DNA of 32,795 bases, taken from the IMG/VR virus record IMGVR_UViG_3300046002_002303, positions 1 through 32,795 of that record; one strand, given 5' to 3'. This document shows positions 1-32,795 of the stretch, piece after piece; position 1 is the first letter of the stretch; every line of letters begins with the position of its first letter. Source of the stretch: a virus. Both the position numbers and the translations under genes were made by a program. The notes under the pieces were generated by a model. That model was not told the origin of the DNA and did no database searches. It saw only the letters and a program-made list of their open reading frames with translations.

Positions 1-289
1 GAGCTCGCCTTGCACCAGCGCTTTGACGCTGTTGAAGTCGGAGCTGGTCACGCTAGTCTCAGACAGCAAGTTGGCCAAGCCATTTGCGTGAATGATGATG
101 TTGCGGCCATCAGGTGGAACATTGTTTTTGTCCATTAAGCGCTTGGCTTCGCGCAGCTTGGTAATGTTCATGTTGGTGTCAGAGCCACCAATGTCATTGC
201 TGACTGTCAAGCTGGTGCTAGATGCAGCAAGTGCGTCCAGAATCATCTGATCTTGGCGACGGCCCATAGCGCCAGCAACAACTTGTACG
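1..289. repeat. Left copy of divergent terminal overlap
   Basis: This segment aligns without gaps to 32507-32795, with 24 differences counted by eye. Most are silent; about four codons change (for example ALAASS versus ALTASS, and SNDIGG versus ANSIGG). True direct terminal repeats of one genome are normally identical. The pattern therefore fits a circular or permuted genome whose assembly ends came from two strain variants, or else a tandem capsid-gene duplication. Confidence 0.85.
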
Positions 290-7967: not shown

Positions 7968-8215
7968 GCTTCACCTCTGGCTCTGATTTCTGCCCCTAAT
8001 TTCTTGAACCAGTCATAGAAACCTGAACCACCCCAAGTTCCGTATTCTTCTGCCAACTTTGCGCAGGCTTCCCTTTCAACGGCTGTTGCTTTGGCGGCTA
8101 CAAGGTTGGCAAACATCTGTAAAGGTTCACCAACACCTGCCCAACACCATTCGGTGTCATTGCATAATTCTTTTGAGACTTGCATATACATCTCAATGAT
8201 TTCATCTTGTGTCAT
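7964..8215 (-). CDS. Hypothetical small protein with conserved accessory motif
   Basis: The 83-residue protein contains KATAVEREACAKLAEEYG and ends in AEIRARGEA. This EREACAK...IRARG pattern is frequent in small proteins of betaproteobacterial phages, where it is often combined with other short blocks. It is acidic and soluble. It starts at 8215 in a 4-bp overlap with the small terminase gene and ends in a 4-bp overlap with its neighbour. Function is unknown. Confidence 0.65.
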   Translation of the reverse strand: MTQDEIIEMYMQVSKELCNDTEWCWAGVGEPLQMFANLVAAKATAVEREACAKLAEEYGTWGGSGFYDWFKKLGAEIRARGEA

Positions 8216-8646
8216 GCTTCTCCCCTTGGTGCCACAACATTGATGTCAATCACAGACGGCTTCTCGCTGCCGTCGTCTGGGTTGTCAAGCAGTCCACTCG
8301 CCTTGGCCAGCAAGCGCAAGACACCCACCTTGTCATACAGCTCAATGTCCAGCGTGGAGTACACATTGCCGTCAGAGTCCTTCTTGCTGTTGACCTTGAT
8401 GCTCTTGATCGCATGCAGCGCGTGCTCTGGTATATCGCTAGACCGCTTGACAGTCACATTGCCAGCCTCATCCCAAGACATGATGTCTGTCAGCTTGGTG
8501 TTAGCCATGGACAGCAACGCATAAGCCACAGCCTCTTTGTTGGCCACCAGCGTCGTGCTGCGATCCAGCCTGCGCTGCACAGACCTCACCCCGCCCCAGT
8601 TGGTCAGGGGAGGGATCACGCTTGACTTAGTCCTAGTCCTTGCCAT
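8212..8646 (-). CDS. terS: Terminase small subunit, probable
   Basis: The 144-residue protein is predicted to recognise phage DNA and pass it to the large subunit. A basic N-terminus (MARTRTKSSVIPP) and a short helical part are followed by a conserved-looking block, AVAYALLSMANTKLTDIMSW, then a segment ending ELYDKVGVLRLLAKASGLLD. That last block is typical of the C-terminal half of Terminase_2-type small subunits. The N-terminal helix-turn-helix is shorter than usual. It lies two genes before terL and begins at 8646 in a TGATG overlap. Confidence 0.72.
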   Translation of the reverse strand: MARTRTKSSVIPPLTNWGGVRSVQRRLDRSTTLVANKEAVAYALLSMANTKLTDIMSWDEAGNVTVKRSSDIPEHALHAIKSIKVNSKKDSDGNVYSTLDIELYDKVGVLRLLAKASGLLDNPDDGSEKPSVIDINVVAPRGEA

Positions 8647-9286: not shown

Positions 9287-10231
9287 TCATCGGGCATCTG
9301 CCTGCAACTGCCGGATCCCTGCCGTGAGGACACGGCTGCTGGGCTTGATGCCCTCGGCTTGGTACAGCGGCAGCAGGGTGTCGAGCGCGTCCCTGATCTG
9401 CTGTGCAGACATGCCGTCTCTGAAAAGTTGCTGAACATCTTGGTTGTGCAGAACAGACATGTTGTCTTCTTCTTTTAAGTTAACTTCTTCACATGTTGTC
9501 TTGTTCCTTTGTTTTATACAACCCTCAGAGGTTGTGCCATAAAAGCCTTCAGGTTGTATCTGGACAGAGTTATCCACAGGCGCTGGTTGTGCTTGTTTGC
9601 TGTCTTGTTGTACAACCTCTGGGGGTTGTGCCTGCGATCCCTTGGTTTGTGCCTTTTGGATGGCTTCTTTCATGTTCCTGACTGTGACTGTTTCGTTTGA
9701 TTTGGGCATGGTTTTATACCTCTTGATTGGTTGCTTGAGTACTTTGCTGATTGCTTGGGCGACTCTGCGTTGGCCCTCTGGATCTGGTTTGTCTGCTTCC
9801 ATTGCTTGCTGCTCCTTCATGTAGGGTGGCCTTGTGTCTTCGATGGCGCTGGTGATGCTGACTGCGTCCTCGGCGCTGATGGTTGGGTCGAAGATGACAC
9901 GCCACGTTGTGTGCCTTGCGCCGGGCATGGGCTTCTTGAGGATCTCTAGGTAGCCTGCCTTGGTCAGCTTGACAAGGTGCTTGCTGATGGCTTGCTGGCT
10001 GATGCCGAGCTTGTCTGCCATGGTCTTTTGGCCAACCCAAGTGATGCCAGACCTGTTCATGTAGCTGCAGATCAGGAGGAATGACCTGATCATGCCGGGT
10101 GTCAGCTGCTTGTCTGTGCATGCTCGGATCGGGATGACAGCTATCTTGCGCTGGTCTGGCAAGGGTGCCTGCTCCTTGATCTTTGGCCGCTTGGGCATGT
10201 TGAAGTGGACTGGCTCAGTCATCGCGTTCAC
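9287..10231 (-). CDS. Replication initiator with winged helix-turn-helix
   Basis: The protein of about 314 residues carries a winged helix around residues 65-97 (WVGQKTMADKLGISQQAISK, then HLVKLTKAGYLEIL), as in plasmid and phage replication initiators and lambda O-like proteins. A Pro/Gln/Lys-rich linker (about residues 195-265) precedes a short C-terminal domain (DVQQLFRDGMSAQQIRDALD). The linker DNA holds a DnaA box and repeated motifs, so origin and initiator appear to share the gene. GTG at 10231 was chosen because GGAAGG lies 7 bp upstream and it overlaps the previous stop; ATGs at 10246 and 10222 are alternatives. Confidence 0.68.
   Translation of the reverse strand: MNAMTEPVHFNMPKRPKIKEQAPLPDQRKIAVIPIRACTDKQLTPGMIRSFLLICSYMNRSGITWVGQKTMADKLGISQQAISKHLVKLTKAGYLEILKKPMPGARHTTWRVIFDPTISAEDAVSITSAIEDTRPPYMKEQQAMEADKPDPEGQRRVAQAISKVLKQPIKRYKTMPKSNETVTVRNMKEAIQKAQTKGSQAQPPEVVQQDSKQAQPAPVDNSVQIQPEGFYGTTSEGCIKQRNKTTCEEVNLKEEDNMSVLHNQDVQQLFRDGMSAQQIRDALDTLLPLYQAEGIKPSSRVLTAGIRQLQADAR
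9442..9632. repeat. Iteron-like GGTTGTGC repeats (putative origin)
   Basis: Direct copies of GGTTGTGC or a one- to two-base variant begin at 9442, 9530, 9552 (GGTTGTAT), 9585 and 9624. Two inverted copies (ACAACC) lie at 9518 and 9612, the latter inside the palindrome GTTGTACAAC. Intervals of 22 and 33 bp between neighbouring copies place them on the same helix face. A DnaA box lies in the middle. The array falls in the linker of the initiator gene. Confidence 0.6.
9570..9578 (+). promoter_or_regulatory. Perfect DnaA box
   Basis: TTATCCACA matches the consensus bacterial DnaA box at all nine positions. By chance about one such match is expected per four windows of this size on both strands, so alone it is weak, but its place among the GGTTGTGC repeats in the initiator gene makes a role in host-DnaA-assisted initiation likely. 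Confidence 0.6.
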
Positions 10232-12127: not shown

Positions 12128-12322
12128 ATGACCACATTAGCCCAACAGATCCAAGACATCGAGCGCCAGCTTGTTGTCATTGAGCACACAGCTGCCAACT
12201 ACATTGGTGGCGACAAGGCCTATCACTCTGGCCATCAGACCTACTTAAAGCCTGCAGCACAGCGCAAAGTTGACTTGCTCAACAAGAAGCTGGACGCATT
12301 GCTTGACCAGTGCGAGGCTTGA
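12128..12322 (+). CDS. Small coiled-coil protein (64 aa)
   Basis: The peptide starts MTTLAQQIQDIERQLVVIEH at 12128, continues with AANYIGGDKAYHSGHQTYLK and ends with an amphipathic helix (RKVDLLNKKLDALLDQCEA). The in-frame upstream extension is a shadow of the previous gene. Stop and start at both ends are arranged as TGATCATG, the same 12-bp GGCTTGATCATG string, indicating re-initiation by terminating ribosomes. Function is unknown. Confidence 0.65.
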   Translation: MTTLAQQIQDIERQLVVIEHTAANYIGGDKAYHSGHQTYLKPAAQRKVDLLNKKLDALLDQCEA

Positions 12323-12324
12323 TC

Positions 12325-12975
12325 ATGTCCAAATTCGTCGCCTACTACCGCGTTTCAACCGACCGCCAAGGTCAGTCCGGCCTCGGCCTTGATGCCCAGC
12401 GTGCAGCTGTGGCCAAGCACATCGGCACCGCCGAGCTGGTGGCCGAGTTCACCGAGGTCGAGTCTGGCCGCAAGAACGACCGCGAGCAGCTGGCTGCAGC
12501 TCTGGCCACCGCCAAGCGCACCAAGTCCATGCTGGTCATCGCCAAGCTCGACCGCCTTGCCCGTAACGTGCACTTCATCTCTGGCCTGCTTGAGTCCGGC
12601 GTACCCTTCGTGTGTGCCGACATGCCCGAAGCCGACCGCACCTTCTTGCAGATGATGGCCGTCTTTGCTGAGTGGGAAGCACGCAAGATCAGCGAGCGTA
12701 CCAAGTCAGCGCTGGCGCAGGTCAAAGCACAGGGCCGCACCCTCGGCTGCCCAACACCCCAGATCGGCTCAGCCATCGGCGTGGCCAAGATCCAAGCCAA
12801 GGCCGACAAGTACGCTGAGCGCGTTGGCCCCATCGTGCGCGACATCATCGCCAAGTCTGGCGCCGACACCATGCGCGATATCGCGGCAGCCCTGCAAGCA
12901 CGCGGCGTGGCCACACCACGCGGCAATACCAACTGGAACGCCTCACAGGTGTCCAACCTTCTCAAACGCATCTAA
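12325..12975 (+). CDS. Serine recombinase (resolvase/invertase type)
   Basis: The 216-residue protein has the catalytic domain of small serine recombinases: YYRVSTDRQ with nucleophile Ser 11, LVIAKLDRLARN with the conserved arginines at 77 and 80, and EWEARKISERTKSAL forming the long helix. A C-terminal helix-turn-helix follows (MRDIAAALQARGVATPRG and SQVSNLLKRI). It is of resolvase size and lacks the large C-terminal domain of serine integrases. Possible jobs are resolving genome multimers, site-specific inversion or transposon-like integration; no crossing-over site was found. Confidence 0.88.
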   Translation: MSKFVAYYRVSTDRQGQSGLGLDAQRAAVAKHIGTAELVAEFTEVESGRKNDREQLAAALATAKRTKSMLVIAKLDRLARNVHFISGLLESGVPFVCADMPEADRTFLQMMAVFAEWEARKISERTKSALAQVKAQGRTLGCPTPQIGSAIGVAKIQAKADKYAERVGPIVRDIIAKSGADTMRDIAAALQARGVATPRGNTNWNASQVSNLLKRI

Positions 12976-13477: not shown

Positions 13478-14434
13478 ATGGCAGGCAAACTAACAGACGA
13501 CAAAGCAATGAGCGCATCGCGCTTACCCGGCCTCATGGGCTTCAGCAAGTACAGCACACCCAATGATGAGCTGCAGTTCAGCATCAACGCCATTGACGGC
13601 AAAGAGCGCCCCGACATTGGCAACGAAGCCATGGGCTGGGGCAATACCTTGGAGCCAGTCATCCTGATCGAATCAGCCAAGCGCTTGGGGCTCACCGACT
13701 ATGACACCCAGATTGGCCAAGCCTACACACACAACGCTGTGGCCCTGTCGTGCTCGCTGGATGGCATTGGCTTTGGGCTTGGCCAAGAGATCTTCACCGA
13801 CCCCGACAAGGGCCTGTATGTGGTTGGCCAAGACTCAATCATTCTCAATGGGCCCGGCGTGCTGGAAGCCAAGCTCACCAAGATGATGCCCGAAGATGTG
13901 CCCCACCTTGCGCGTGGCCCCATCCAGCTGCAAGGCCAAATGCTGATCACCGGCCACAAGTGGGGCGCGGTCTGCGTGCTCTACCAAGGCATTGAGCTGC
14001 GCGTGTTCCTGTTCGCCCCGCACAGCGAGACACAAAAAGCGATCATCAAAGCTGTGCTGGCCTTTGAGCACAAGCTGCAGACCTACCGAGACAGCGGTGC
14101 CATCGACTGGTACCCGCCTGAGACAAGCAAGGAGATGGATCGCATGTACCCGCAGGCCGTGGCCAAGGAAGAGATTTCCCTTGACATGCAGGCCGAGCGC
14201 TTGGCCGAGCAGCTGCTGGCTGCCAAGTCTGTGGTCAGAGAAGCCGAGGCCTCAATTGACAACGCTGAGAAGCAGATCAAGGAGCTGATGGGGCAGGCTG
14301 AGCGTGGCCGAGCTGGCCGCTTTGTAATTAACTGGCCCATGCGTAATTACAAGGCGGCAGCCGAGCGCTTGGTGCCAGCCAAGGAAGCCTACTCTGTGCG
14401 CCAGTCCACGCTGACCATCAAGGAGCAGTCTTGA
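13478..14434 (+). CDS. YqaJ-like exonuclease (PD-(D/E)XK family)
   Basis: The 318-residue protein is predicted to chew one strand from double-stranded ends and hand the single strand to the RecT partner. The N-terminus shows ASRLPGLMGFSKYSTPNDEL and MGWGNTLEPV, typical of YqaJ-type enzymes. The metal site is LSCSLDGIG (Asp 95) and GVLEAKLTK (Glu 130, Lys 132), followed by QLQGQMLITG. The C-terminal 90 residues form a coiled coil (EASIDNAEKQIKELMGQ). AGGAG precedes the ATG. Confidence 0.86.
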   Translation: MAGKLTDDKAMSASRLPGLMGFSKYSTPNDELQFSINAIDGKERPDIGNEAMGWGNTLEPVILIESAKRLGLTDYDTQIGQAYTHNAVALSCSLDGIGFGLGQEIFTDPDKGLYVVGQDSIILNGPGVLEAKLTKMMPEDVPHLARGPIQLQGQMLITGHKWGAVCVLYQGIELRVFLFAPHSETQKAIIKAVLAFEHKLQTYRDSGAIDWYPPETSKEMDRMYPQAVAKEEISLDMQAERLAEQLLAAKSVVREAEASIDNAEKQIKELMGQAERGRAGRFVINWPMRNYKAAAERLVPAKEAYSVRQSTLTIKEQS

Positions 14435-14616
14435 ACCTGCAAGGCAGGCCCGACATCCAGCAGGCCTACGACGCAGCTGTCGTGGCCATGCTCAATGCCA
14501 CCGGCTGCACCGAGCCACAAGCCGAGGCCTTTGTCGAGGCTATGGCCCACCTGATTTTCACCACCATGCAAACCTACTTAACTGAGAGAGAACCAAATGG
14601 AACTAACCACCACTAA
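14431..14616 (+). CDS. Small protein between exonuclease and RecT
   Basis: The 61-residue protein begins with TTG at 14431, which overlaps the exonuclease stop (TTGA) and has a perfect AAGGAG 5 bp upstream, so this start is convincing. The peptide has a helix IQQAYDAAVVAMLNATG and another, EPQAEAFVEAMAHLIFTTMQ. It is acidic and soluble. It overlaps the next gene by 20 bp. Its place suggests a helper or inhibitor of the recombination pair, which is inference only. Confidence 0.62.
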   Translation: MNLQGRPDIQQAYDAAVVAMLNATGCTEPQAEAFVEAMAHLIFTTMQTYLTEREPNGTNHH

Positions 14617-15577
14617 CCGGGGCTTTGCTCCGGCCACCCTCACCGAGGCCATCCAATTCAGCGACATGCTGGCCAACTCCAGCATGGTGCCCAAGGCCTA
14701 CCAAGGTAAGCCCCAAGACATTCTGGTCTGTGTGCAGTGGGGCTATGAGATGGGGCTGGCACCCATGCAGGCGCTCCAAAACATCGCGGTGATCAACGGC
14801 AAGCCAAGCGTGTACGGCGACGCAATGATGGCGCTGGTGCAGGCCAGCGCAGTCTGCGAAGACGTTGAAGAGTTCTTTGAGAACGAAGGCACGCCCAACC
14901 CGGTGGCCGTCTGCATTGCCAAGCGAAAAAATCGCAAGCCGGTTGTTGCCAAGTTCAGCGTTGAAGATGCCAAGCGAGCTGGCCTGTGGGGCAAGCAGGG
15001 CCCATGGTCGGCATACCCCAAACGCATGATGCAGATGAGAGCTCGCGGCTTTGCGCTGCGCGATGCCTTCCCTGATGTGCTCAAGGGCTTGATCAGCGCC
15101 GAGGAAGCACAGGACTATCCTGATGAAGCCAAGCCCCAGCCTGTGGCCAAGCCAGCCAACCCGTTGGATCTGGTGGCCAAGCCGGAGCCCGTGGCCATAC
15201 CCGCGGCCACCAGCGATCCAGTCATCATTGAGGCAGCGTTTGCCGACACGGTTGAGCCAGAGCTGGTGACAGTTGAAGCTGAAGAGCTGCAGCCTGCTGA
15301 CACCGTGGCACGATTTGGTTATGCCTTGATGGTGCCCGGCAAGGAGGAGCCCTTCTCAGTGCATGAGAGCTTGGATGAGTGGCAAGATGCCTACGAAGAT
15401 CTGGCCGACAAGACAGCGAGAGCTGGCAAGCGGCCAGCCCGTGAGCGCATGACCGCGTTGAAGGAACTGCGCGTAGTCAACGAAGAAACCATCGCACGCA
15501 TTGACATGGTCAAGCGGATCCGGCACACGGCCAGCTACACCCAGCGCATCAAAGCACTGGGTGCATCGCAGGGTTAA
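14597..15577 (+). CDS. recT: RecT-family single-strand annealing protein
   Basis: The 326-residue protein is predicted to anneal complementary strands after exonuclease resection. The RecT core spans residues 10-175: MLANSSMVPKAYQGKPQDIL, VCVQWGYEMGLAPMQALQNI, AVINGKPSVYGDAMMAL, KRAGLWGKQGPW, and MMQMRARGFALRDAFPDVLK. A Pro/Val/Glu-rich linker (residues 185-235) leads to a small helical C-terminal domain. It is the last gene of the rightward operon, and its TAA overlaps the stop of the opposite endolysin gene in TTAA. Confidence 0.9.
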   Translation: MELTTTNRGFAPATLTEAIQFSDMLANSSMVPKAYQGKPQDILVCVQWGYEMGLAPMQALQNIAVINGKPSVYGDAMMALVQASAVCEDVEEFFENEGTPNPVAVCIAKRKNRKPVVAKFSVEDAKRAGLWGKQGPWSAYPKRMMQMRARGFALRDAFPDVLKGLISAEEAQDYPDEAKPQPVAKPANPLDLVAKPEPVAIPAATSDPVIIEAAFADTVEPELVTVEAEELQPADTVARFGYALMVPGKEEPFSVHESLDEWQDAYEDLADKTARAGKRPARERMTALKELRVVNEETIARIDMVKRIRHTASYTQRIKALGASQG

Positions 15578-32251: not shown

Positions 32252-32795
32252 TTAAGTTTCACGGCAGGTGATCTTGACGATACCTTCATCGTCAATGGCA
32301 ACAGCGCCAGCACTGAAGACCTCGTTCACCAACCAAGAAGTCTTCTCAGCGATGTAGTTGATCTCAGTTCTCATGGCAATGCCTTCACCGTAGCCAACTG
32401 CATCCTTGTGGAATGCAAAGCAGCTGCGATCAAGTGAGGCATCAATAGCCAAGCCGCCTTCAGAGCGGTCACCCAAGACATGGAACGTGAAGCCCAAGTA
32501 GGTGTTGAGCTCGCCCTGCACCAGCGCTTTAACGCTGTTGAAGTCGGAGCTGGTCACGCTGGTCTCAGACAGCAAGTTGGCCAAGCCATTTGCGTGAATG
32601 ATGATGTTGCGGCCATCGGGTGGAACATTGTTCTTGTCCATTAAGCGCTTAGCTTCGCGCAGCTTGGTAATGTTCATATTGGTGTTTGAGCCGCCAATGC
32701 TGTTAGCCACTGTCAAGCTGGTGCTTGATGCGGTAAGTGCATCCAAAATCATCTGATCTTGGCGACGGCCCATAGCGCCAGCAACAACTTGCACC
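32252..32795 (-). CDS. Major capsid protein, C-terminal part (cut by window edge)
   Basis: The frame is open from the window edge to a stop at 32252. The part up to 32507 repeats codons 101-196 of the left-edge piece at about 92% DNA identity. The part from 32506 to 32252 is the unique last 84 residues, with NTYLGFTFHVLGDRSEGGLA, SCFAFHKDAVGYGEGIAMRT and EVFSAGAVAIDDEGIVKI, typical coat protein C-terminal segments. Together the two pieces make one coat protein if the genome is circular. Confidence 0.82.
   Translation of the reverse strand, partial: VQVVAGAMGRRQDQMILDALTASSTSLTVANSIGGSNTNMNITKLREAKRLMDKNNVPPDGRNIIIHANGLANLLSETSVTSSDFNSVKALVQGELNTYLGFTFHVLGDRSEGGLAIDASLDRSCFAFHKDAVGYGEGIAMRTEINYIAEKTSWLVNEVFSAGAVAIDDEGIVKITCRET
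32507..32795. repeat. Right copy of divergent terminal overlap
   Basis: This is the partner of 1-289 (see that entry), aligned at a constant offset of 32506. The differences cluster around 32687-32746, where several adjacent codons differ, which argues against random sequencing error and for two real alleles. Confidence 0.85.

Follow-up and report, generated by a model that had tools for sequence, protein, structure and literature searches.

How DNA synthesis starts in a phage that has T7-like virion genes and no detectable replication enzymes is the question raised by the locus described here, a putative initiator gene with a cluster of short repeated sites in its coding sequence. The window analyzed, 32,795 bases, is the whole of a single uncultivated virus record. 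The two ends of the record (window 1-285 and ~32507-32791) share 286 bp of the major capsid gene at 92.7% identity, so the genome is near complete, with a circle of ~32.5 kb, and the contig ends stem from slightly different members of the population. The first-pass annotation of this DNA had remarked on a T7-like virion background without phage polymerase or helicase. The virion part is borne out by matches to PF05396, PF12236 and phrog_376 (Table 1), and the second part by profile searches in 14 related records, in which PolA (PF00476), DnaB_C (PF03796), IstB/DnaC-type (PF01695) and lambda P (PF06992) profiles found no match while control genomes matched as expected. The replication genes typical of T7, the PF00476 polymerase and the PF03796 helicase-primase, were not detected despite the T7-like capsid assembly and connector genes. 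The phage does encode RecE/RecT-like and RuvC-like genes and, possibly, an SSB-like gene. With neither a phage polymerase or helicase nor a known loader detected, host DnaA/DnaB loading and host replication proteins are the likely machinery. Two further observations concern the region beyond the initiator gene: a RecE/YqaJ-type exonuclease and a RecT-type annealing protein (13478-15577, plus strand) are opposite in direction to most genes, and a serine recombinase/invertase-like gene (phrog_125, 3e-33) lies at 12310-12975, also on the plus strand, in a phage lineage whose initiator has no relative among the bacterial and archaeal genomes searched.

The nearest cultured phage, judged by the large terminase, is Methylophilales phage MEP301 (74% identical). 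A search of 84,980 bacterial and archaeal genomes found no relative of the initiator and hence no prophage or host link, and cultured phages gave distant matches only. Among these, the helix-turn-helix (HTH) genes of Rhodobacter phage RcBaka and of a Bradyrhizobium phage were set aside, as they have other helices and are without ACAACC or GCAACC dyads. In the RcBaka gene (L326, 1956-2927) the linker has a repeated ETRLRN peptide, which may mark a further in-gene array of repeats of another site.

The gene itself is identified as O-like by several PHROG profiles, including phrog_391 (1.5e-5) and phrog_345 (5e-4) in addition to those in Table 1; these scores are modest, the best being 34 bits. 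The match to HTH_36 (29.4 bits) is above the cut-off of 25. Neither a Rep_3/RepA-type profile nor RepA_N (PF06970) is among its Pfam matches. A fold search against the PDB returned generic winged helices, including the plasmid initiators 5kbj and 4pt7, and none below an E-value of 0.001 (best 0.0024). An AlphaFold2 model, built with 39 family members, divides the protein into a winged helix, a long disordered linker and a small helical C-terminal domain, which by analogy with lambda O is a possible partner-binding domain. Because several relatives align only from about residue 6, the true start may be the conserved Met9 at 10222.

The first-pass annotation had placed a perfect DnaA box among five direct and two inverted motifs, at intervals of 22 and 33 bp, in the linker-coding part of a winged-helix initiator gene. 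The coordinates agree in every respect: GGTTGT occurs in direct orientation at 9442, 9530, 9552, 9585 and 9624 and inverted (ACAACC) at 9518 and 9612, the DnaA box is the sole exact one in the window, and all lie within the open reading frame for which HTH_36 and the AlphaFold2 linker predict that architecture. A degenerate GTTTGTGC at 9645 forms the end of the interval it had marked. What it had missed is that the two inverted copies pair with two of the direct ones, giving two identical ACAACC-N6-GGTTGT dyads, the only ones in the window, with the DnaA box midway between them (33/34 nt). Read in gene orientation (0-based nucleotides), the order is dyad 1 at 617, a single ACAACC at 656, the DnaA box (TGTGGATAA) at 668, a second single site at 689, dyad 2 at 711, an A+T-rich purine tract from 729 and a last single site at 799. 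The tract stands out against a gene average of 47% A+T, and nearly the whole of the proposed origin falls within the code for the disordered linker. In a scan of the whole window that allowed one mismatch, GGTTGTGC was not enriched overall, so the signal is one of clustering and arrangement, not of abundance. Among 20,000 synonymous-codon shuffles of the gene, the seven hexamers recurred with P=7.5e-4, the two dyads with P=5e-5 and the DnaA box with P=0.002. The sites are spread over three reading frames and both orientations, and therefore no repeated peptide accounts for them.

Table 1. Features of the phage genome and of the proposed origin, in window coordinates; domain boundaries are predicted.
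Feature	Position	Strand	Basis or remark
T7-like capsid assembly gene			PF05396, 124 bits
T7-like head-tail connector gene			PF12236, 317 bits
Tail protein gene			phrog_376
Small terminase gene	8212-8646		
O-like replication initiator gene, 319 aa	9287-10246	-	phrog_678 (4.4e-8), phrog_428 (2e-6), HTH_36
Winged-helix domain, residues 40-117	9896-10129	-	AlphaFold2, pLDDT ~90 through most
Recognition helix, residues 84-97, QQAISKHLVKLTKA	9956-9997	-	AlphaFold2; residues 84, 88 and 89 track the half-site
Disordered linker, residues 203-261	9464-9640	-	AlphaFold2, pLDDT <50
C-terminal helical domain, residues 268-318	9293-9445	-	AlphaFold2
Dyad 1, ACAACC-N6-GGTTGT, proposed initiator dimer site	9612-9629	.	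Synonymous difference 4.7%
Single half-site GGTTGT (GGTTGTGC at 9585-9592)	9585-9590	+	Lost in a few relatives, e.g. L019-L021, L026
DnaA box TTATCCACA	9570-9578	+	In every close relative; synonymous differences absent among those compared
Single half-site GGTTGT, 22 nt from the corresponding arm of dyad 2	9552-9557	+	No synonymous change
Dyad 2, ACAACC-N6-GGTTGT, proposed initiator dimer site, adjoining the A+T-rich tract	9518-9535	.	Synonymous difference 2.1%
A+T-rich tract, proposed unwinding region	9458-9517	.	70% A+T; gene strand 75% purine
Outlying single half-site GGTTGT, on the far side of the A+T-rich tract	9442-9447	+	GTTGTT-type (TGAACAACCA) in some relatives

The check for conservation of motif and spacing beyond the needs of the protein, which the earlier annotation had suggested, was run and passed: the DNA sites are kept while the linker diverges, and they recur in 65 diverged initiators. 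At close range, 33 loci encode initiators that are 75-100% identical, and in these the dyads, the box and most of the single sites are kept in register, with a few single sites lost. Synonymous differences amount to 2.7% in the motif codons versus 16.8% over the remaining codons (permutation P ~1e-5, for codons that are not fully independent and a motif set picked after the window was seen). The synonymous minimum of the gene lies at codons 222-260, where amino-acid divergence is high. Several of the close relatives (L023-L032) have a second exact DnaA box past dyad 2, at about gene nucleotides 749-767, which is absent in the window.

The wider family was collected by profile scans of viral contigs, which gave up to 499 relatives in one scan and, after thinning at 80% identity, 65 genes; it is a large group of uncultivated aquatic phages. 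The 65 genes contain 426 cognate half-sites, 106 dyads and 30 exact DnaA boxes, compared with means of 134, 4.0 and 1.6 (maxima 159, 11 and 7) in 1,000 synonymous shuffles; the choice of the commonest half-site for each gene favours enrichment somewhat, and the shuffles used the same half-site. The cognate half-site was adopted since generic counts of 6-mer dyads per gene, with any spacer, had proved noisy. At least one exact dyad is present in 56 of the 65 members. In the 38 members for which it was calculated, A+T content reaches its maximum, 63-66%, just past the last dyad, against 46% for the whole gene. Counting exact boxes only, a DnaA box is present in 27 members and absent in 38, from which it follows that DnaA is either optional or using diverged boxes. 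The length of the dyad spacer varies with the helix, being 6 with SKHL, 4 with QQAVAKQF and 5 in L090 and L092, and may reflect dimer geometry. Distances between dyads (94, 82, 72, 61 and 48) are by inspection not all in phase, with no single helical phase.

Scans of 2.9 million viral contigs with DNA patterns alone led back to the same genes. A dyad with a DnaA box at 25-45 nt was found in 42 stretches, most of them in the initiator family and a few in unrelated genes, and a single site with a dyad at exactly 22 nt was found at 66 loci, 65 of which belong to the family; the helix is of QQ type in nearly all of these, and in one it could not be parsed. Three of the 42 stretches (L036, L042 and L050) contain a diverged O-like gene with the helix QQGVSKH and dyads; the dyads use the same half-site, and two DnaA boxes lie 12 nt apart in the opposite orientation.

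Members of the family differ in their half-site, and these differences follow the predicted recognition helix. Glutamine at residue 84 occurs with ACAAC (37/37), arginine at 84 together with lysine or arginine at 89 with GCAAC (18/18), and arginine at 84 with asparagine at 89 with GGACAC (7/7); single rows combine K84 with TCAACC and H84 with GCAAC, and one row, L306 (K84 with ACAAC), falls outside this simple code, its helix alignment being doubtful. The association of residue 84 (with 89) and half-site has a Fisher probability of 7e-18, without phylogenetic correction. A tree from which helix and linker were left out implies 15 changes at residue 84 and 16 in the site, and all eight independent pairs agree (sign test p=0.0078); an earlier tree test, with 39 rows, had yielded too few independent pairs (3/3, p=0.25). 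Glutamine usually contacts adenine and arginine guanine, a preference that the pairing of Q84 with A and of R84 with G at the first base would fit. Two residues of the linker, 212 (V, A or S) and 243, vary according to site class, and here it is the protein that follows the DNA.

On the basis of these data, we propose that the segment is the replication origin of the phage, embedded in the gene of its own initiator as the first-pass annotation had suspected; DNA-level conservation and covariation both argue for this reading, and we put its probability at about 0.86. Computation establishes the sites, their conservation in excess of coding need and their covariation with the recognition helix; we infer direct binding by the initiator, firing of the origin here, a place of unwinding and a role of DnaA, which could combine as follows. 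Initiator dimers would bind the two dyads through the winged helix, and the single half-sites would extend the complex. Binding would strain and open the purine-rich A+T tract adjoining dyad 2, and host DnaA on the centred box, the C-terminal domain of the initiator, or both would then recruit DnaB and the replisome of the host, whose machinery could plausibly enter at the DnaA box. Such a constraint on the DNA would be tolerated because the stretch encodes a disordered linker. Cumulative GC skew, which had been recommended as a further check, neither supports nor refutes an origin at this segment: minima fall at ~29.66 kb (raw) and 28.76 kb (detrended), and on the joined circle the detrended range was reached by 851 of 1,000 block shuffles, that is, there is no structure and no origin signal.

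That the same binding sites form an operator or a copy-control (handcuffing) array, serving to repress the gene or to set its timing, with the true origin elsewhere, is in our estimate unlikely. The sites could indeed serve autoregulation, and covariation with the helix points to binding by the product of the gene, not by itself to replication; they lie, however, more than 600 nt inside the gene and not at a promoter, no third dyad occurs in the window, and an operator needs neither the enriched DnaA boxes (30 versus 1.6 in the family) nor an A+T-rich tract.

Very unlikely, too, is the explanation that helix and linker covary only because they are exchanged as one recombining block, with no functional contact between protein and DNA. 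The two are only ~350 bp apart and phages are mosaic, but columns that lie between them track the site much less well than residue 84 does. Outside the linker, residue 84 is the most informative on the site (0.97 bits, shuffle-corrected), followed by residue 88; the best of the intermediate columns reach 0.50 bits and belong to the wing (residues 113 and 112), and the C-terminal domain contains little information except at residue 267, at the edge of the linker. Block linkage is thus not a sufficient cause.

The chance that the array is a packaging (pac) site, or a partition or recombination site that happens to lie in the initiator gene, appears slighter still. A small terminase gene is located nearby, and other phages have a small-terminase-like gene with GCAACC repeats of its own, but in the initiator family the half-site tracks the recognition helix of the very protein whose gene contains it, and a pac site gives no reason to expect DnaA boxes. 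The terminase-like genes emerged from the GCAACC counterpart of the 22-nt spacing scan, in which 4 of 15 loci belonged to the initiator family, all with RQ helices, and the other 11 to a single small-terminase-like family whose HTH likewise reads SRQAI and whose half-site is the one used by RQ-type initiators. Several of these (L329, L331, L333 and others; HTH SRQAIQKR) have six GCAACC/GGTTGC sites between the two HTH domains of the gene, possibly a pac site inside the terminase gene; coding bias is also possible, since most of the sites share one frame in a QP-rich linker. Finally, that the motifs of the initiator gene are a by-product of codon bias in a repetitive Gln/Ala/Pro-rich linker has a negligible probability, for although two of the sites share a frame in which they encode AQP peptides, the array uses three frames and both orientations, synonymous shuffles fail to yield it, and the amino acids encoded at the sites vary with the class of the DNA site, as at residue 212.

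If the segment is an origin embedded in its initiator gene, a wider picture can be drawn, to which we give an even chance: a lineage with T7-type virions would start replication by a hybrid of two known designs, with a lambda-like in-gene origin opened jointly by an O-like dimer and by host DnaA on a centred box, and no phage helicase loader, and its specificity would have been switched about 15 times by matched changes of helix and site, making the gene a self-contained pair of initiator and origin with a readable code. In-gene origins are known from lambda, and the worked examples of which we are aware are few and come without exception from cultured phages; this one uncultivated lineage would offer 65 diverged initiator/origin pairs with some 15 specificity switches. 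The code (residue 84, Q with A and R with G, plus residue 89) is testable and predicts which co-infecting relatives would share, or exclude, each other's origin. The locus would also be a clean case of a DNA stretch selected more strongly as a binding site than as protein code, and a concrete answer to how DNA synthesis starts in a group with T7-like virions and no detectable replication enzymes.

Among known systems, the O-like protein gp55 of MEP301 is 34% identical over the winged helix but has only 201 aa, without the long linker and without such sites, and the origin of that phage must therefore be organized differently. RepA_N initiators have an N-terminal winged-helix domain that binds semi-palindromic iterons as a dimer (PMC7145576). 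The phage initiator shares the winged helix with RepA of the staphylococcal plasmids pSK41 and pTZ2162 and with PLE RepA, as the 5kbj and 4pt7 fold matches indicate, but this resemblance is to a generic winged helix only (best E 0.0024) and does not extend to PF06970; in PLE, moreover, the origin is outside the gene. With iteron plasmids of the Rep_3 type (P1, F, RK2, pSC101), in which initiator and DnaA cooperate in origin opening (PMC5043065), the segment has in common the combination of initiator sites, one or more DnaA boxes and an A+T-rich tract. Their iterons, however, bind monomers and are usually outside the rep gene, whereas the phage has dyads within the gene itself and an initiator of another type than Rep_3.

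The closest parallel is lambda, where the origin lies in the middle of the initiator gene and consists of inverted repeats, bound by O dimers, with an A+T-rich tract of ~40 bp after them (PMC5043065, PMC7466680). The comparison with lambda O made in the first-pass annotation holds: the protein matches O-like profiles and has the same succession of N-terminal DNA-binding domain, origin-coding linker and C-terminal domain, and the gene has putative initiator-specific iterons in mid-gene, as dimer-type inverted repeats, then the A+T-rich tract. It differs from lambda in its half-sites (ACAACC, GCAACC, GGACAC or TCAACC), arranged as two spaced dyads plus single sites and not as four tandem iterons, in the DnaA box centred between the dyads in the clade of the window, in having no match to lambda P, and in virion genes that are T7-like and not lambdoid. 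It would thus work like lambda O/ori, without being a lambda O/P system, from which it is set apart by its centred box, its set of sites, the lack of a lambda P match and a T7-like virion.
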